From NCBI GenBank assembly GCA_027483405.1, contig JAIXUU010000057.1, positions 1 through 35,047 of the forward strand: a stretch of 35,047 bases of DNA. The letters are read 5' to 3'. Positions 23,642 to 33,370 of the stretch are shown here, one piece after another. Under the pieces are notes generated by a model. It searched no databases. It was not told the DNA's origin and saw only the letters and a list, made by a program, of their open reading frames with translations. Each line of letters opens with the position of its first letter. Within the stretch, counting starts at the first letter, position 1. A program made the position numbers and the translations under genes. The stretch is from Planctomyces sp. (lineage in GTDB: Bacteria; Planctomycetota; Planctomycetia; Planctomycetales; Planctomycetaceae).

Positions 23642-25048
23642 TTACATATTTGTCTTGGCGTCACCGGCATCGCCCAGCAGGCTCTGCAAAGCCTGTGTAA
23701 TCGCCTTATCATTCGCGTGATCCCGACTGTAAACCCGGAACACCGACAGACTCAGCGGCAACTGCCGGAAAAGTTCATCATCCGAAAGCTCGGTGATTCC
23801 ACTGGCCGCTGGATCAAACAGATGATTTTGACCACCCACTGGGAGCCTGCCACTGGGCCGATGATAATGCCGAGCCACATCGATGCGCAATTCGATAGAC
23901 TTCTTATCCTCTGGCAACCGGCCGCGCAAGCGCTGCTCGATGAGGTCAGGTTCCGAGAAGATCGACATCCGCTCGGCACTGCTGGTGTAGTACCCCATGG
24001 TGCGCTCTGTCGCCATTTTCCAGTGGACTTCCCGCGAAAGAATCTTCTGCCAGCGCTCGCCCAATTGGCGTGTCGCAGGATCAATCGATTGCGAGAAGCG
24101 ATCCACATCGACCAGAAATGATGATTCTGTCAAGCGGCGGTAGTTTTCCAACTGACCAATCGGGCTCCCCTGGAACAGGTGAGGCATCGTCTCGGGAAAT
24201 AGATCCTCGAGTGCCAGATCGATGGCCCGGACCGTGCGATGAAAGTAGACCGTGCGGAAGAGGTTGGCACGGGTTTCGATGAAATTGATCAAGGTGGGCA
24301 AGCCACGAATATGAATCGTTAAGCCCTGAGGAGTAAAGAACGAATAGTGGAGCAGCCTGGAGATATCAAACGCCCGCACGTTGTAGCCCGTCATGTAGGC
24401 ATCGCGCAGAACGAAATCCATGTTGTCCACAGTATAGATACCGCTGAACATCGCCCGCAGTTTCTTGAGCCAGTCGGGATGGCCTTCGTCATCAGGTGAA
24501 CCTGGCCTGGGCCGGCGGATCAGCCACGAAATCTGCCGGGGATCGAGTTCTTCCAGTGGTTTCAGTTCTCCTTTGGGATTTCGCCGGATCCCCCGCAGCA
24601 GTTCTCCCAGTTCCTGCTCGATGATCACGCCCCCCACATCTTCGTGAGTGACACCGAACTGTGCCAGGTAATGATCATCAAAGAAATGGCCAAAGGGCCC
24701 ATGCCCCACATCGTGCAGCAGGGCCGCCATGCGTAAGAGCGATTCGACATAAGGCCGCGAAGGAACATTACGACACGCATCGCACAGCGAATCGTACCAG
24801 TAGTCAATGGCCACAGAGGCCAGATGCATGGCCCCCATCACATGCTGAAACCGCATGTGCTCCGCTGCCGGAAAGACCCACCAGGCTGTCTGTAACTGAT
24901 GAATATGCCGGAGTCTCTGCACCCACGGATGATCAATGATATCCTGCTCGGCTGTCTCTCCCAAAGGCAGACCCGCGCGTGAAATGAACGGAATGTATCC
25001 GTGAATCGGATCGTGTGAGAGGCTTTCGCTGATGAAGTTTCGCGACAT
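23642..25048 (-). CDS. HD-domain phosphohydrolase (SAMHD1/dNTPase-like)
   Basis: A 468-residue cytosolic metal-dependent phosphohydrolase numbered from ATG 25048. The frame is open 44 codons further, but homology to HD proteins begins at this Met (DPIHGYIPF, typical of the family). Metal ligands are H69 (FQHVMGAMH), H112 and D113 (LLHDVGHGPFGH) and D208 in TVDNMDFVLRDAYMTG, matching the VDKWDYFARD motif of SAMHD1. The PFGH segment is also a family mark. Members hydrolyse dNTPs or other nucleotides. It lies 88 bp after the condensing-enzyme gene on the same strand and may belong to the lipid operon. A functional link to that pathway is not obvious. Confidence 0.88.
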   Translation of the reverse strand: MSRNFISESLSHDPIHGYIPFISRAGLPLGETAEQDIIDHPWVQRLRHIHQLQTAWWVFPAAEHMRFQHVMGAMHLASVAIDYWYDSLCDACRNVPSRPYVESLLRMAALLHDVGHGPFGHFFDDHYLAQFGVTHEDVGGVIIEQELGELLRGIRRNPKGELKPLEELDPRQISWLIRRPRPGSPDDEGHPDWLKKLRAMFSGIYTVDNMDFVLRDAYMTGYNVRAFDISRLLHYSFFTPQGLTIHIRGLPTLINFIETRANLFRTVYFHRTVRAIDLALEDLFPETMPHLFQGSPIGQLENYRRLTESSFLVDVDRFSQSIDPATRQLGERWQKILSREVHWKMATERTMGYYTSSAERMSIFSEPDLIEQRLRGRLPEDKKSIELRIDVARHYHRPSGRLPVGGQNHLFDPAASGITELSDDELFRQLPLSLSVFRVYSRDHANDKAITQALQSLLGDAGDAKTNM

Positions 25049-25136
25049 ATCAACTGGACTTATCTGGAACGAGTTCTTCGAAACGTGAGAGTTTTTGAGA
25101 CCAATCACGGGAGTGGCCTGGCCGACATTTCCACCA

Positions 25137-26300
25137 CTACCAGTCGACCGCCAGCATGAGACAGTTGAGTCCGCTCCCAATCCCGAGAAATGCCACGCGG
25201 TCGCCCTTCTTCAGAAAACCACGCTCTTCCGCCAGTGAAGCAGTCATCGGCAAAGAAACCGTCCCCATGTTCCCGAGAAACGGAAACGTCGGAAAGTCTT
25301 TTTCCAGTGGTATCCCCAGTGATTTCAGAACCTGTTCGCGATGTCCCTTCCCCACCTGATGACAAATCACTTTGTCGATTTCCTGTGGCTTCAGCCCAAA
25401 GCGGGCCAGCATCGAAGCCCACGTTTTGACTCCCAGTTCGACACCATACTTCATGACGGAAATCGAATCGGTCTGCATAAACTGGTGGAAGGCGTGCGAA
25501 AGCTTGGCGGGCAAGATCCCGCTCACTTTCTGCTGCACCAGTTGCGGCATGAGTGACCCCAGCCTCGTTTGTGTCACAGCACTGGGAAGCACCTGCTCGA
25601 CCTTGTTGACGGCAGCAGGTAAAAGAGATTCAAAACCCCAGCGGCAAAGTTCATGATGCTCGGGAGCAGCCAATAAGCTGCCACCCAGCAGTTTATGACC
25701 GCGTGTTCGCGAGAAGGATCCGTCGGTGAGGATCACAGCGACGGCACCACTTCCACCTGTCAACGTGGCCAGTGAATGTGTCAGATTCTCCATGGTGGGG
25801 TCTTCGAGCAACCGCTGGATGGTGAACTCGATAATCTCGCGAGCCGATTCGCAGGAAACGACCATCCCCGCACGAATCTGCCCCAGTTCAATCCGGTTGG
25901 CAATATCGATGATTCCATTGAGCACACCCAGGCAGGCATTGCTGAGATCGTAGACCGCCACGTCATCGGTCAGTCGCAGGTTCGCTGCCACACCACAGGC
26001 CGTTGCCGGCTCGAACTGTTCCCGGCAGACACCTGCATAAATCAGCACGCCCAAGTCGCGAGTCGAGACGTTCGATTGTTCGAGTGCCCGCCTCGCCGCT
26101 GCTGTCGCTCCACTGGTGAGTTTATAGCCTTCAGGCCACCAGCGGCGTTCGCTGATCCCTGTCCAGGCTTCAAGCTGCCCGGGGCTCACTTTGAGCTTCT
26201 CGTAAACCGGTGCCAGGCGTTCTTCCAGCTCGACCGAGGAAACAACTTCGGGCGCCAGTTCGTAACCAATCGTTTCAATATAGACTTTGGAATAACGCAT
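25137..26300 (-). CDS. FabH/OleA-like condensing enzyme (ketoacyl-ACP synthase III family)
   Basis: A 387-residue thiolase-superfamily enzyme with the full catalytic triad: C123 (DLSNACLG), H314 (ICHQVGKGH) and N344 (LGNMGTVSL). It is longer than FabH (about 320) and closer in length to OleA. The segment VCREQFEPATA (91-101) resembles the OleA region holding the glutamate that helps deprotonate the substrate, so head-to-head condensation of acyl chains is a possibility; a FabH-like priming or acyl-transfer role is the alternative. It starts with ATG at 26300, 134 bp after the end of the megasynthase gene on the same strand, and very probably works with it. No oleB, oleC or oleD gene is nearby. 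Confidence 0.85.
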   Translation of the reverse strand: MRYSKVYIETIGYELAPEVVSSVELEERLAPVYEKLKVSPGQLEAWTGISERRWWPEGYKLTSGATAAARRALEQSNVSTRDLGVLIYAGVCREQFEPATACGVAANLRLTDDVAVYDLSNACLGVLNGIIDIANRIELGQIRAGMVVSCESAREIIEFTIQRLLEDPTMENLTHSLATLTGGSGAVAVILTDGSFSRTRGHKLLGGSLLAAPEHHELCRWGFESLLPAAVNKVEQVLPSAVTQTRLGSLMPQLVQQKVSGILPAKLSHAFHQFMQTDSISVMKYGVELGVKTWASMLARFGLKPQEIDKVICHQVGKGHREQVLKSLGIPLEKDFPTFPFLGNMGTVSLPMTASLAEERGFLKKGDRVAFLGIGSGLNCLMLAVDW

Positions 26301-26434: not shown

Positions 26435-29400
26435 TCAACCCACACCCCGCACTGCCCAACCCGTCATCTGATAGATCACCCGTCCATCGACTTCCAGCCA
26501 GCCATTGGCAATGACCGTATTGGTTGTTCGATCAATCGAAACGATCTCGGCATCAATCGTTACCAGGCTGTCTTTGGGAATGACCTGACCACGATAGACC
26601 CACGCCTGCGGTGTGCCACAAACGGGTGTTTCGAAATTCACACCGCCATGTGTACTCACGATTTCGGCTTTGACCATCCAGTGCTTGATCACCTGCAAAA
26701 AGGCTTCCAGCCCCAGCGATCCAGGCATCACCGGGTCTTCGTAGAAGTGCGCCTTGTAGTACCACGCTGCGGGATTGACTTGGGCCTCCCCACGGACAAA
26801 ACCAGCCAGCTCGGGCCGCCCGGGAACACTTCCCTGCTGCAGAAGGCAATGCGTGATTCGATCGACAAAAGAATAACTCGCTTCAGGAAAGGGAGGCGAT
26901 TGCGAGAAGCTTTCCGAAGCAGCGAAATTTTCCAGCACCACACGTTTGGCATCTCGCAGGCCGACCTGATTGGCGAGCGATGCTGCCGAAAAGAACCCGA
27001 AGTAAGTTGTTCCCGAATAGACAAGTTCATCCCGTGCAAACATCTCCATCGAGAAGTGCTGAATGATCATGCCTCCTGACATCGAAGCCTGGGTCATGCG
27101 GGCTGTGGTGGTCAACGTACCAATCTCGGGAGTTACGGGCCGATGCTGAGTCGCCTTGCCTCCCAGATTGCGAAACTTGAGATCGGTCTCGCTGGTGAGT
27201 GCTGAGCCGGCATAAGCCGCCAGCCAGCCACAAGGTTGCAAAGCGGTTTCCAACAAAACTGAAAATGGCATTTCGGGCTGTCGATTGGCGCTGAAGTACC
27301 AGGCATCGACAGGAACATCGTACTGGGCGACGCAATGACAGCCAGCCTTCATCACAAATGGTGGCCCACCGACTTCCACAATCCGATCTAAAAACTGAAA
27401 CGGAGGGCCGGGCAGTCTCGCAATCTTGCGATCGTGGTCGAAGACTGTGTACTCCGGCCCAAAAGCTTCCGAAGGCTTACCAATCGAATAAGCCGTAATC
27501 CTTTCGAGAGGATAGATGGCTGGCCGCACATCGTACAGTGGAGTGTTCCCTCCACTCGCCCCGCTCTTCTTAACTTCGCTTATTCCCTCTCCCTCTGGGA
27601 GAGCCCGAGGTCTTTTTCCCTCTCCCTCTGGGAGAGGGTTAGGGTCTTCAATCTTCCTTCCCGCCCAGTTCGCTTCCACACGCGCTTTTGTCAGCCCTGT
27701 GAACTGCAGCGACATGTTACTGATTTCCACAATCGGCTTGCCATCGGCGAACATCAGGGCGTCGGCCAGGCAATAAGCATCGCTATTGGAACCATCCGTT
27801 CCATAACCCAGCTCGCGAATCGTGACTTCGTACCAGACCTCTTTCGTCGAGGCCAGCACCTGCCCGCGGCACTTGAGCCGACTTTCGATCCCCACGACAG
27901 GTTCGGAAACGACCTCACCGGTTTCACCCACCCAGCCCATGCGCAGCAGATAAATCCGCAGCGTGTGCAGGCAGCACTCGTACATCAAAGTCCCCGGCAT
28001 CACATGGTCATCACAGAAGTGACATTCGAGGAACCAGTCGTCGGGATGAATATCGAGCGCGGCGCGAATCCGTCCCAGCCCATACTTCCCCCCGCCAGGT
28101 TCAATCTCGATGACTCGATCCACGAGCCTCAGCTTGCCACCCGGAATGGTGTAAGGCTTGTGCAATGGCAGATTGGCAAATGCCTGACCAAAAGCACCGA
28201 CAAGATCTCCCTCTCTCAGCCGTTCGACCTGTGCGTCACTCAGGCTCCCCGGTGTGATGGCAACGGGTTCGCGCCAATCGGCAGGGAGCTTGCCAGGCCG
28301 CGGTGCGAGATCGAGTGTGCTGTGGATGATCCCTTTCCCTGCTGCCAACGCCGATTCGGTGAAGAACCCGGCACACCCCTCGCGCATCGTAATGAGTGGC
28401 TCGCCATTGACTGTTCCATCGAACTCAAATTTGAACAGCCAGGTCTCACCCTGCTGGAAGAACTTGAGAATGCGAATGTTATAGACAATCGTTTCGCCAG
28501 GAACAGGCAGACCCCGGTGGAATGTGACAATCGCATCGAGCAGACGATAAACCGCCTGGCCACGGGTTTGCAGATCAATCCCCAGCCAGCCCGCGAGAAA
28601 GAGATCGGCCTGACCCGATTCCACCGCAATCGCTGTCGGGATCCGTCCTCCATCCAGATACCACCGCGCTGCATGCACATCGTGTTCTGTCACCACGCAG
28701 CCGTGCGACATCGACAGTGGTTCACCTTCGATGTTCGTGATTCGATCGACCAGCATGAGTGGCTCATCCGGCAGTCGCACGCGCGTGGCGTACTGGTCGG
28801 CTGCGGCAAAGAGTGGCCCCAGTGCCTCGCCAATTTTCCCAATCGCGAATTCCAGGCACTCCTCGCGCGAGAGACTCCGCGGCGGTATCGATTTGTCGCG
28901 TTTCGACGAAACCGAATTCGTACTCAGAACCACTTCCTCATGAGGAGTGATCTCCAGCTCACCGGCTGCCTGCAAACGGGCTAACCGCTCTTCGAATGCC
29001 AGATAAGCGGCTTCAGCAGCCTCGATAGTTTCTGGGGAATTCATCGTCATGGGCGTCGCACTTGATGTCTTGGTATCAATCAGTTGTTCAGCAATCATCC
29101 CCTCTCCCTCAGGGAGAGGCCGATTATTTATTCCCTCTCCCACAGGGAGCGGGCCAGGGTGAGTTTCTGAGCGAGAACTTTCATTCCGCAATAATTCTTG
29201 CAGAACACCCGCAACTTCGCTTGTCACAACGGGGATCTGCTTCCAGTTCAAACGTCGGATCGGGATCTCGATCTGCGGGCTGGTGGGCAGGCCCAACGGC
29301 TTTCGTTTTCCTTCAAAGAGCTTCGTGAGCTGGCAGAGTGCAAAGAGTGGAGCCAAATCGACAGCCACTCCCCGGACAGCGAGCCACCCGAGTGTACGGA

Positions 29401-32400
29401 CAAAATGTCGCACGGGATGAGCTGTCAGCGGGCAGGCACTCCGCACGGAAACTTGCTGATCGTGGTCAACGAGAATGGTTTCAATTAAACGCGTGCAGGT
29501 GCTGCCCGGGCCGATCTCCAGAAACAGATTGGTTCCCTCCTGGTAGGCGGCTTCAATCACTGCCGGGAAATCAATCGTATGCAGTGCCTGCGAAGTGATT
29601 GCTTCAGCACAGGCAGTCGTGGAAGGGATGTAGGCCTTTGAAGTCGCTGTGCTGTAGACCGTGATCTCTGGTCGCAGTTGAACTGGCAACAGATGCAGTG
29701 CCCGCCACTGATCTTCCACCTGCTGTACGAAACTCAAATGGACTGTACTGGGCGCCGGCAAAGGCGTGATCGGGAGCGAAAGCTCTTCCAGCAATTCAGC
29801 GACTTGAACTGCATCGCCGCCAATCAGGCATTTTTGCGGGGCAAGGACAATCAGCAGTGCCACCTTTGGCTTTCTGGCAATAGCTGGCCAGAGCCGATCA
29901 GCCGGGCATTCGACCACTCCACTCGTCCAGGGGACAGGTTCATCGGGAGGAATGTTCCATGCCTGCCGGGCCGTATCGAACGGTGGTGTTAATAGACCGG
30001 CAAACAGTCGCGAGGCCAGCATGCGCGACAGCATTTCATCGCGGGCTGTCCAGATTCTTAATCCGAAGAGTGCTGAGGATTCCCCGAGACTGTTACCAAC
30101 CGAAACTTGAGGAATCACTCCAAAACAGGCCAGGAGATCGCACATCAACGTGGCCAGCGTCACCTGTCCGAAAATCATCGCCCGATGATCGTCGGCAATG
30201 GCTGCTGACGATTCGCCATTCCACAACAAGTCGGGCCGGTACTGATCGGCCAGCCGCAGATTCTCACGATCCTGCTGTTCGAGGATCTCCGGAAAAGCCT
30301 GCCCAAGCTCTCGTCCCATTCCCAGAAAATGACTCCCCGAACCCGGGAAGACAAAGGCCAGCTGGGGATTTTGAGGTGCTGCAGAAAGGTAGAGCACACC
30401 CTCCCGGCTCAACTCTTCCTGGCCTTGAGTCGTCGTGATTTGCTGCAGCAGGCTGGCCACCGATGCATTCGATGAAACCATGAGGATGGCGAGTGGTCGC
30501 GTCACTCCTTGCGGACGGGCGGCGTACACCTCGCAAAAGTGCTGCCACCGACTGGGCCCCACATGCCGCCCACTCAAACCATTGACAGCCGAGTTCTCCC
30601 ACGCAGCCAGTAACGAACGCGCCCGCTCTGCCAGTTGATGTTGGGTTGTCAGGTGAGCAGGCGAAGCTTCTGCAACGGTGCCAATCTCGCTACCAGAAGT
30701 TTGTGGTTCCGGCCAGATGACCAGCGGCAATTCGGTCAAGTGTGGTCTGGTCGCTTCCAGCGATGAAAACACCGGTTGAGGAGTTTCCTTGAGCGTGAGG
30801 AGACTCCATAAACCGATGGGAGATGGACTTCGAAGAGTGGCCCGGCGAGAACCTTCAGCTCGATTTCTCAACCAGTATTGCCAGCCCTTGGCGCTTTTCC
30901 CGAGGGCATCGGCTGCACCGGGTGGGAGTGATCGCGTCGCGAGGCAAGCCACGGCGGCAATCGCGTCGATCATCCCCGAAGCCACACCCGCAGGCCCCAA
31001 AAGAGCCGAGATCGAAGGGAAGACGTGTGGTAGTTCCTGAGATGGAGCCTCACCGGCACCAGACGTGACCTCTTCGATCAAGGCATAGATCTGGTCGCCA
31101 TCGCGCTGGGCATCCGAGAGCCGTTTGAGGACGACAGCACCGGCACCATAGGTCGAGTTGGCAGGAAGCGTACTCTTCCACAACCCGGTTTGATCAGCAT
31201 CCGGCAGATCGACAGCACAGGCCAGAGCCAGATCGATCTCTTTGAGTCGTAGCGCCTCGCTGGCCTGACGGATCGCTTCAAAACTGCTCGCCTCTTCGCT
31301 CGAAAGGACAAACGAGGGGCCGCCGCAATCGAGTTCGCGGGCCACGCGACTGGCCACAATCCCACCGAGATTTCCCATCACTCGATTGGGGGTGAGCGGA
31401 GGATGCAGCCCATTCACCAGAGATTCGATGACTGCTGCGTGATGTTCGGTCGCAGTGATTCCCGAGTCTCGCAGTTCCTGTTCGAGTCGCCAGCGCAAAT
31501 GAAAGTTCGACGATTCGATATCGAGGGCAATGCCGACAAACAGCCCGCAGCGATCTCCTAGCGAACCTTCGAGTCCCGCGTGCGCTTTGGCTTCACTGGC
31601 CACATCGAGCATCAGACCCTGTTGAGGGAGCATATCCTGCTGCTCGACGGGGGGAATTCGAAAACGCTGCACAGGCCAGGAGAGTTGAGGATCTTCCGCT
31701 CGCGCAGCTTCCCGTTCGGGATGTCGGCTTTGCCAACGCTCGAACAGTTGCTCGATCGAGGCTTCGCCAAGTGCTGCCGAGAAACCAATAATCGCGACTG
31801 GCTCTTGTTCTGGCTGAGGCGTCGTCAGATCCGCAGCGACACTCACCTGGACCGGGTGGTGAGTCGAAGGAAACGCCGTCTCCTTTTCAGAAGCTTCTTC
31901 GAGAAACTCTTCCACCAGCAGATGCCCGTTGATTCCGCCAAATCCAAAACCATTGACAGCGGCACGCCGGGGGAGACCATGACCGGGGGCTTCCCAGCGT
32001 TGACTCTCGCGCAAAACTGCAAAGGGAGAATGTGCTTCCTGCAGCAGACCGGCTGGCTGCTCAAAATTGGCCGTACAGGGCAATACCTGATGCTTGAGCG
32101 ACAGCACGACTTTCATAAGGGCCGCAGCACCAGCACCCGTCAGCAGATGGCCCACATTCGATTTCACTGCTCCCAGCACAGCCCGGGAAGAGCGATAGCC
32201 GGCCTGTCGCCAGAGTTCATGCAGGCTGGCAATTTCGACCTGGTCTCCGACAGGGGTTCCTGTGGCATGGCATTCGATGAGATCGACACTCTCGGGCAAC
32301 CATCCCGCCCGCTGATAAGCTGCGCGCATGGCCCGTAACTGGCCTTCTGTCCGCGGTGAAAGCAGGCTGCCACCCCGATCATTCGAAAGCCCCGCCTCCA

Positions 32401-33370
32401 CCAGCACTGCATGAATTTCCAGACCGGCTGCAATCGCATCCGGGAGCCTCATCAGCAGGAACATCCCGGCTCCTTCACCCACGACCAGCCCATCAGCCCG
32501 GGCATCGAGTGGACGACACTTCTGCCCTTGAGAGAGCGCCTTGAGCTGTGAGAATCCAATCTGCGTGTACTGGCAATCGGGTCGGGAAAGCCCTCCTGCG
32601 AGCATCACGTCCACTCGTCCTGCGCGGAGTTCGTTCATCGCCAACTTGACGGCATAGATCGATGAGGCACAGGCGGCATCGAGCGTGAATGCCGGGCCAC
32701 GCCAGCCGAGTTCGCGAGCAATCAGAGCGGCGGGCAAACCCAGTGCGTAACGGTTCTGCTCAGACCAGCGCTGGGGATCTGCTGATCCGTGGGGCCCGTG
32801 TGATTTTGTTCCCGTGGAAACTTCGAGCACTTTCGAGAGGTATCTCGAACCCAGCACATCCCAGCAAAGATCGTTGATGGCTTCGACGGGGAGAGCGATA
32901 CTGCCGAGAATCACACCACAGCGGGCCGGGTCAAGTTTCTGTAGGTTAAGCGGGTCGGCTGGCCTATTCTGGTCTGTTCCTTGCAGCGTTGAGTTTTGAG
33001 TGCTCTCGATGGTCTGGAAGGCTGTCTTCAGCCCAAGACGAAAGAGGGGATCGAGCCCGTTCCATTCGGCTTCTTTGATGGAGGGCAGATGTTGGGAAAT
33101 GGACGGCCTGTGGGGAAAGAGATTCCAGGCACCTTCATCGAGATAACAGCCCCAGGTCGAGAGGGCTTTATCTGGCTGAGAAAACGGCCCCAGTGCATAG
33201 CGGCTCTCCAACCTCCAGCGACCAGGCGGAACGCTTCTCCCGGCATCAACGCCTGAGTGAATATTGCTCCAGAAGCCATGCAAATCACCCGCGCCGGGAA
33301 AGTACCCTCCCAGGCCAACAATGGCGATTTTCTCACGGGAATCAGCAGAGCTTGGGGAACGTTGAGACAC
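26435..33370 (-). CDS. Pfa-like lipid/polyketide synthase: KS-CLF-AT-DH-DH-DH-DH
   Basis: A 2311-residue multifunctional synthase. The GTG at 33370 is the start: an in-frame TGA lies 9 nt upstream. Domains in order: KS at about 14-490 with C234 (DAACASS), H368 (ECHATGT) and H408 (KSNVGH); a second KS-like domain at about 522-860 in which the Cys position is E693 and the His residues are lost, fitting a chain-length factor; AT at about 1000-1350 with S1094 in VGNSLGES; four hotdog domains forming two dehydratase pairs, about 1500-1890 with catalytic H1784 (ECHFCDDHVMPG) and about 1960-2311 with H2208 (KAHFYEDPVMPG). The second pair closely follows PfaC (MPFSVLLETALQPCGW). No ACP, KR or ER is visible. 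It probably makes a special fatty acid or glycolipid chain with partner proteins encoded elsewhere. Confidence 0.9.
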   Translation of the reverse strand: MSQRSPSSADSREKIAIVGLGGYFPGAGDLHGFWSNIHSGVDAGRSVPPGRWRLESRYALGPFSQPDKALSTWGCYLDEGAWNLFPHRPSISQHLPSIKEAEWNGLDPLFRLGLKTAFQTIESTQNSTLQGTDQNRPADPLNLQKLDPARCGVILGSIALPVEAINDLCWDVLGSRYLSKVLEVSTGTKSHGPHGSADPQRWSEQNRYALGLPAALIARELGWRGPAFTLDAACASSIYAVKLAMNELRAGRVDVMLAGGLSRPDCQYTQIGFSQLKALSQGQKCRPLDARADGLVVGEGAGMFLLMRLPDAIAAGLEIHAVLVEAGLSNDRGGSLLSPRTEGQLRAMRAAYQRAGWLPESVDLIECHATGTPVGDQVEIASLHELWRQAGYRSSRAVLGAVKSNVGHLLTGAGAAALMKVVLSLKHQVLPCTANFEQPAGLLQEAHSPFAVLRESQRWEAPGHGLPRRAAVNGFGFGGINGHLLVEEFLEEASEKETAFPSTHHPVQVSVAADLTTPQPEQEPVAIIGFSAALGEASIEQLFERWQSRHPEREAARAEDPQLSWPVQRFRIPPVEQQDMLPQQGLMLDVASEAKAHAGLEGSLGDRCGLFVGIALDIESSNFHLRWRLEQELRDSGITATEHHAAVIESLVNGLHPPLTPNRVMGNLGGIVASRVARELDCGGPSFVLSSEEASSFEAIRQASEALRLKEIDLALACAVDLPDADQTGLWKSTLPANSTYGAGAVVLKRLSDAQRDGDQIYALIEEVTSGAGEAPSQELPHVFPSISALLGPAGVASGMIDAIAAVACLATRSLPPGAADALGKSAKGWQYWLRNRAEGSRRATLRSPSPIGLWSLLTLKETPQPVFSSLEATRPHLTELPLVIWPEPQTSGSEIGTVAEASPAHLTTQHQLAERARSLLAAWENSAVNGLSGRHVGPSRWQHFCEVYAARPQGVTRPLAILMVSSNASVASLLQQITTTQGQEELSREGVLYLSAAPQNPQLAFVFPGSGSHFLGMGRELGQAFPEILEQQDRENLRLADQYRPDLLWNGESSAAIADDHRAMIFGQVTLATLMCDLLACFGVIPQVSVGNSLGESSALFGLRIWTARDEMLSRMLASRLFAGLLTPPFDTARQAWNIPPDEPVPWTSGVVECPADRLWPAIARKPKVALLIVLAPQKCLIGGDAVQVAELLEELSLPITPLPAPSTVHLSFVQQVEDQWRALHLLPVQLRPEITVYSTATSKAYIPSTTACAEAITSQALHTIDFPAVIEAAYQEGTNLFLEIGPGSTCTRLIETILVDHDQQVSVRSACPLTAHPVRHFVRTLGWLAVRGVAVDLAPLFALCQLTKLFEGKRKPLGLPTSPQIEIPIRRLNWKQIPVVTSEVAGVLQELLRNESSRSETHPGPLPVGEGINNRPLPEGEGMIAEQLIDTKTSSATPMTMNSPETIEAAEAAYLAFEERLARLQAAGELEITPHEEVVLSTNSVSSKRDKSIPPRSLSREECLEFAIGKIGEALGPLFAAADQYATRVRLPDEPLMLVDRITNIEGEPLSMSHGCVVTEHDVHAARWYLDGGRIPTAIAVESGQADLFLAGWLGIDLQTRGQAVYRLLDAIVTFHRGLPVPGETIVYNIRILKFFQQGETWLFKFEFDGTVNGEPLITMREGCAGFFTESALAAGKGIIHSTLDLAPRPGKLPADWREPVAITPGSLSDAQVERLREGDLVGAFGQAFANLPLHKPYTIPGGKLRLVDRVIEIEPGGGKYGLGRIRAALDIHPDDWFLECHFCDDHVMPGTLMYECCLHTLRIYLLRMGWVGETGEVVSEPVVGIESRLKCRGQVLASTKEVWYEVTIRELGYGTDGSNSDAYCLADALMFADGKPIVEISNMSLQFTGLTKARVEANWAGRKIEDPNPLPEGEGKRPRALPEGEGISEVKKSGASGGNTPLYDVRPAIYPLERITAYSIGKPSEAFGPEYTVFDHDRKIARLPGPPFQFLDRIVEVGGPPFVMKAGCHCVAQYDVPVDAWYFSANRQPEMPFSVLLETALQPCGWLAAYAGSALTSETDLKFRNLGGKATQHRPVTPEIGTLTTTARMTQASMSGGMIIQHFSMEMFARDELVYSGTTYFGFFSAASLANQVGLRDAKRVVLENFAASESFSQSPPFPEASYSFVDRITHCLLQQGSVPGRPELAGFVRGEAQVNPAAWYYKAHFYEDPVMPGSLGLEAFLQVIKHWMVKAEIVSTHGGVNFETPVCGTPQAWVYRGQVIPKDSLVTIDAEIVSIDRTTNTVIANGWLEVDGRVIYQMTGWAVRGVG
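27585..27645. repeat. Tandem pair of palindromic repeats inside the synthase gene (copy 1)
   Basis: Two units, CCCTCTCCCTCTGGGAGAGC (27585-27604) and CCCTCTCCC-TCT-GGGAGAGGG (27618-27638, perfect 9-bp stem), are followed by TTAGGGTC. They encode LPEGEG twice (residues 1913-1918 and 1924-1929) in the linker between the second and third hotdog domains, without breaking the frame. Confidence 0.85.
29099..29163. repeat. Tandem pair of palindromic repeats inside the synthase gene (copy 2)
   Basis: The units are CCTCTCCCT-C-AGGGAGAGG (29101-29119, perfect 9-bp stem) and CCCTCTCCCACAGGGAGCGG (29133-29152, one mismatch) followed by GCCAGGGTGAG. They encode LPEGEG and LPVGEG (residues 1408-1424) in the linker between AT and the first hotdog domain. 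The same element type as copy 1. Confidence 0.85.

Follow-up and report, generated by a model that had tools for sequence, protein, structure and literature searches.

A fused pfaBC gene beside oleA points to a probable dispersed pathway to polyunsaturated hydrocarbons in Planctopirus-like bacteria

Introduction

To which machine does a 2311-residue chain of ketosynthase, acyltransferase and dehydratase domains belong, and what does that machine make? The question is raised by a planctomycete gene at positions 26435–33370 (minus strand, GTG start) of a 35,047-nucleotide stretch of DNA, here called the window. A preliminary description proposed that PfaB-type acyltransferase (AT) and PfaC-type KS-CLF and dehydratase (DH) functions, normally on separate subunits, are fused here in one chain without carrier or reductase domains, in a system that must either be split or use cellular FAS parts. 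This interpretation is partly supported. The reading frame is real and does encode the proposed fusion; the fusion itself, however, is a described one. In the survey of Shulse and Allen (2011, PMC3098273), Types C, D, H and I all have a pfaBC fusion, given with the order KS-CLF-AT-DH2 for C and D, and the planctomycete Gemmata obscuriglobus is counted in Type I. Their Type J, from Planctomyces limnophilus, has only pfaD and a pfaA of domain string KS-MAT-ACP3-KR, and is called 'apparently partial'.

Two systems provide a biochemical frame. Shewanella PfaA-E together with OleA in E. coli gives a 31:8 ketone, and the proposed substrate of OleA in Shewanella is a 16:4 acyl intermediate drawn from the synthase; with OleBCD the outcome is a 31:9 olefin (PMC6463001). 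Geobacter bemidjiensis has a tandem pfaDABC-oleABCD and makes C31:9 (PMC4882568).

Results

The 2311-residue protein is a pfaBC fusion of the known architecture KS-CLF-AT-DH2, and its full domain string reads KS-CLF/KS'-AT-DH'-DH-DH'-DH (Pfam and orthologue alignment); all domains lie on the minus strand. We read its catalytic residues directly and compared them on 15–16 planctomycete orthologues of 41–96% identity. The ketosynthase domain (residues 13–437; 32060–33334) contains both the N- and C-terminal ketoacyl-synthase parts (PF00109, PF02801) and has C234, H368 and H408, as read on 16 orthologues. It is followed by a CLF, or PfaB-type pseudo-KS (about residues 516–861; 30788–31825), recognised from the AlphaFold2 model and the PfaB match given below, in which the alignment shows E693 in place of the catalytic cysteine. 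The AT (about residues 958–1344; 29339–30499) has S1094 and an H1211 that is invariant among the aligned orthologues. Pfam places Acyl_transf_1 (PF00698) at residues 1006–1302 with 36 bits. The AT is of the PfaB type, with the motif GNSLG, and not of the malonyl type GHSxG; the PfaB model TIGR02816 matches at 74 bits, under its cut-off of 144.

Structure prediction agrees with this assignment. Among the solved chains listed, the best match to the model of residues 516–1395 is the crystal structure of Shewanella PfaB (9ry8), pseudo-KS plus AT (Z 36.8 over 586 residues, 3.9 Å). This stretch therefore resembles PfaB, and the chain as a whole resembles a PfaC into which a PfaB has been merged, after the KS and ahead of the DH domains. 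When we searched contigs with the PfaBC protein, only one same-genus MAG contig matched.

The four C-terminal domains are hotdogs, and the proposed duplication of the dehydratase is borne out down to the residue numbers. Pfam recognises four distinct FabA-like stretches (251 bits in total), and the AlphaFold2 model of residues 1486–2311 (pLDDT 82) arranges four hotdogs as two double-hotdogs. The first (residues 1502–1902; 27665–28867) has H1784 and E1798, and the second (residues 1955–2311; 26438–27508) has H2208 and E2222. All four residues are invariant across the aligned orthologues. Glutamate as the dehydratase partner is the FabZ-type acid; FabA has aspartate. The model matches FabA with Z 19.8 over 170 residues and the double-hotdogs of PKS DH domains with Z about 20 over 270 residues. 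We reject 'DH4' as a novelty: a DH'-DH-DH'-DH series of hotdogs is what PfaC normally has, and its extra DH' domains were noted in a 2016 review (PMC4882568).

Where, then, are the carrier and the reductases? The Pfam search found no PP-binding, KR or ER domain in the PfaBC chain. The window proteins scanned include no carrier protein, ketoreductase or PfaD, just as the preliminary description had stated, and no PPTase either. All are encoded outside the window in the same genome, a 5.36-Mb draft in 487 contigs with pfaBC on contig C449. On contig C304, pfaA and pfaD adjoin. This PfaA is a 2414-residue protein of the order KS-MAT-ACP-ACP-ACP-KR-PS-DH, with three PP-binding domains, and scores 1500 bits against TIGR02813 (cut-off 1010); its neighbour PfaD scores 618 bits (cut-off 449). 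There are three ACPS-family PPTase genes. One genome thus holds a Pfa-type set: PfaA with tandem ACPs and KR, PfaD, and PPTase candidates. The suggestion that the system is split is correct, and the suggestion that it uses cellular FAS parts falls away, since the presence of PfaA and PfaD makes such parts unneeded. We likewise reject a novel single-chain synthase without carrier and reductases, because its other subunits are encoded in the same genome. The single pfaD-pfaA-pfaBC cluster of Type I is absent: the genes are on C304 and C449 in the draft, and in the closed genomes G001 and G002 long distances separate them on the chromosome.

The genome also encodes another multidomain synthase, cut off by the end of a contig (L014, G000:C369; L015, G000:C80), which is probably a secondary lipid synthase of a Type R-like kind that the assembly has broken in two. 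Its existence, and the presence on C80 of both a PPTase and a KR-like protein, raise the question of whether PfaBC partners this synthase, or a type II FAS, and not the PfaA and PfaD of C304; proximity cannot settle partners in the window's genome. In relatives, however, the PfaBC orthologue clusters with PfaA and PfaD orthologues. Moreover, Type R as described in the survey has its own CLF (PMC3098273), so that a Type R-like synthase would not need PfaBC. We regard such a partnership as very unlikely.

The best clue to the product is a gene missing from the finding of the preliminary description. Separated from pfaBC by 134 bp, downstream and on the same strand (25137–26300, minus), it encodes a 387-residue head-to-head thiolase/KASIII-like protein. 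The closest solved chain is X. campestris OleA (3row), which scores 191 bits, whereas the best FabH-type chain reaches 77 bits; alignment shows that the active Cys, His and Asn and the OleA glutamate are conserved. Judged by sequence, the gene is an oleA. A plasmid search gave no match for OleA.

Two features of this neighbourhood deserve mention. The OleA proteins of the family have about 50 extra residues after residue 226 relative to X. campestris OleA, and class-level homologues of about 350 residues are without part of this segment. In each of the four same-genus genomes, the gene that comes straight after oleA codes for an HD-domain protein (23642–25180 in the window); no such neighbour of oleA turned up in the remaining family members read.

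Probing the window's genome with genes that are clustered in a family relative, we found single orthologues of OleB (C43, 62% identity), OleC (C92, 54%) and OleD (C262, 52%). OleC scores 632 bits against the NCBIfam olefin beta-lactone synthetase and OleD 428 bits against the 2-alkyl-3-oxoalkanoate reductase model, both under the curated cut-offs. OleB matches no olefin-specific model and has only a haloalkane dehalogenase-like match, which is the OleB fold family.

Comparison with relatives joins these scattered genes into one set. Four class-level relatives (G047, G050, G053 and G058) have a single co-directional cluster, pfaD-pfaA-pfaBC-oleA-oleB-oleC-oleD, and two more (G046 and G055) agree with it in the part read. 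In two members of the window's family, G027 and G028, pfaBC-oleA-oleB-oleC-oleD is still together, with pfaD and pfaA each elsewhere. G004 has pfaD-pfaA and pfaBC-oleA, with oleB about 31–38 kb off and oleC and oleD scattered. G036 has pfaA-pfaD; its oleD lies about 4 kb from pfaBC, on the opposite strand, and further contigs hold oleA, oleB and oleC. In the window's genus the genes are spread over five places, which on the closed chromosome of G001 are pfaD-pfaA at 0.59, pfaBC-oleA at 4.30, oleB at 3.42, oleC at 4.63 and oleD at 2.11 Mb. On the simplest history, a single cluster came apart in the family ancestor and later, following more than one pattern, and its genes were still co-inherited. 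That the cluster came first we infer from its wider distribution, Geobacter included, and not from rooting.

In two genomes of the comparison (G056 and G043; L066 and L067) a PfaA-like protein of 909–948 residues precedes pfaBC, and a shorter PfaA-like KS protein lies with PfaD on another contig. PfaA seems to be split in two there.

Could the dispersed genes be the leftovers of a formerly functional cluster, now in decay? The cluster is indeed broken up, PfaBC is fast-evolving in the genus (branch 1.0, against 0.18 for OleA) and the AT motif carries a substitution, N1093. Yet four same-genus genomes have full-length open frames with the KS and DH catalytic residues conserved, and OleA is 99% identical across three species. 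We find decay scarcely credible.

Gene content and phylogeny speak for joint inheritance. OleA occurs in 20 of 59 genomes, and all 20 also have PfaD and a PfaBC orthologue; PfaD is present without OleA in three, and 36 have neither (Fisher p 6e-13 for OleA and PfaD, uncorrected for kinship). Eight genomes of the window's family have all of these genes and 29 have none. The eight sit together on one branch in each of the PfaBC, OleA and PfaD trees, with 97–100% support.

The three genomes with PfaD and without OleA (G039, G044 and G048) belong to another family and show that the phylum has a Pfa system lacking olefin genes; in Gammaproteobacteria, Pfa systems yield EPA or DHA besides hydrocarbon (PMC6463001). 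The same split synthase might accordingly deliver mainly a PUFA, free or membrane-bound, or some different acyl unit, and OleA would then work on other chains. However, pfaBC and oleA are adjacent in seven of the eight family genomes that have both, even where the rest is scattered, and OleA is never found without PfaD in the 59-genome sample. A mainly PUFA-making system is in our view unlikely.

Discussion

We consider it likely that PfaBC is part of a split Pfa synthase, with PfaA, PfaD and PPTase encoded elsewhere, which feeds OleA and so leads to a long polyunsaturated olefin. The reading draws on domain content, intact catalytic residues, the full gene set, the clustering in relatives, joint presence and absence, and agreeing trees. 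Counted against it are the dispersal of the parts, the sub-cut-off scores of OleC, OleD and TIGR02816, an OleB without a specific model, N1093 and the enlarged OleA. Physical assembly of PfaBC with its partners is presumed, and the product is a prediction from gene content.

The proposed route would run as follows. Acyl chains would ride in trans on the ACPs of PfaA, with condensation by the KS and CLF domains of PfaA and PfaBC and reduction by the KR of PfaA. The double-hotdogs of PfaBC would dehydrate (and isomerise), and selective reduction by PfaD would leave methylene-interrupted double bonds. The AT of PfaBC would off-load or transfer long chains, and OleA would join two of them head-to-head. 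OleD, OleC and OleB would then take the beta-keto acid through a beta-lactone to a long polyunsaturated, C31-like olefin. Chain length and the number of double bonds are beyond deduction from sequence. A thioesterase, PfaT, is a helper known from Shewanella and Photobacterium. The AT of PfaB is described as a terminal long-chain acyltransferase (PMC12895367). That pfaBC and oleA stayed adjacent after the rest of the cluster broke up fits a hand-over from PfaBC to OleA.

The AT motif bears on this step. A tyrosine in the motif of bacterial (Moritella) PfaB is required for activity (PMC12895367), and N1093 stands in its place, so that off-loading by PfaBC may differ. The window's genus has GNSLG (residues 1092–1096; 30083–30097), most planctomycete orthologues have GYSLG, G047 and G056 have GLSLG, and G055 has GLPLG, without the serine.

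How does this system compare with those already described? PfaBC is an enzyme of a known kind whose gene set is unusually dispersed. Type I, as presented in the survey for Geobacter bemidjiensis and Gemmata obscuriglobus, shares with it the pfaBC fusion, a pfaA with ACPs and KR, pfaD and the ole genes; the Type I genes are clustered, whereas those of the window's genome lie in at least five places (PMC3098273). Type D, from Psychroflexus torquis, has the same KS-CLF-AT-DH2 order in a single chain, but its pfaA is split, its products are ARA and EPA, and the survey's passages on it do not mention an ole link. Shewanella PfaABCDE-OleABCD has the same set of functions, with OleA bridging Pfa synthase and hydrocarbon; there PfaB and PfaC are separate and the product is known (31:9), whereas that of the window's system is predicted only (PMC6463001).

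Type J is the closest case. It has the same two genes and the same domain string as C304, whose PfaA adds PS-DH. The survey calls Type J partial; in G001, which we infer to be P. limnophilus DSM 3776, pfaBC-oleA is unlinked, 1.7 Mb off by the short way. This locus would be the other half of Type J, and on that identification of G001 the synthase is probably complete. A literature search, which did not cover the 2010 survey of olefin producers, found no paper linking P. limnophila pfaBC with oleA.

More tentatively, as a reading that we hold to be less likely than not, we put forward the whole: a complete seven-gene pathway (pfaD, pfaA, pfaBC and oleA-D) in five places in Planctopirus-like genomes, dissolved from one cluster in several patterns within one family yet kept as a set, with Type J complete, and with an Asn-for-Tyr exchange in the AT and an enlarged OleA that may lead to a product not yet described.

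These findings fill a gap left in 2011, when Type J looked like half a machine; the other half probably lies beside oleA. They suggest that a megasynthase normally encoded in one cluster can scatter over a chromosome and yet persist as a set, and that genome-mining tools restricted to neighbouring genes will miss such cases. Genetic tools have been published for P. limnophila (PMC12078418), which makes the prediction of a polyunsaturated C31-type hydrocarbon directly testable.

A final observation concerns the linkers of pfaBC. A palindromic repeat, CCCTCTCCCNNNGGGAGAG, is present in four copies, in two pairs 33 bp apart, at 27580–27643 and 29095–29158. All copies lie inside linkers (AT-DH1 and DH1-DH2), where they read PLPEGEG in frame. 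Copy number varies among same-genus genomes, G002 being without the second site, and a small repeat element therefore seems to spread in tolerant linkers.
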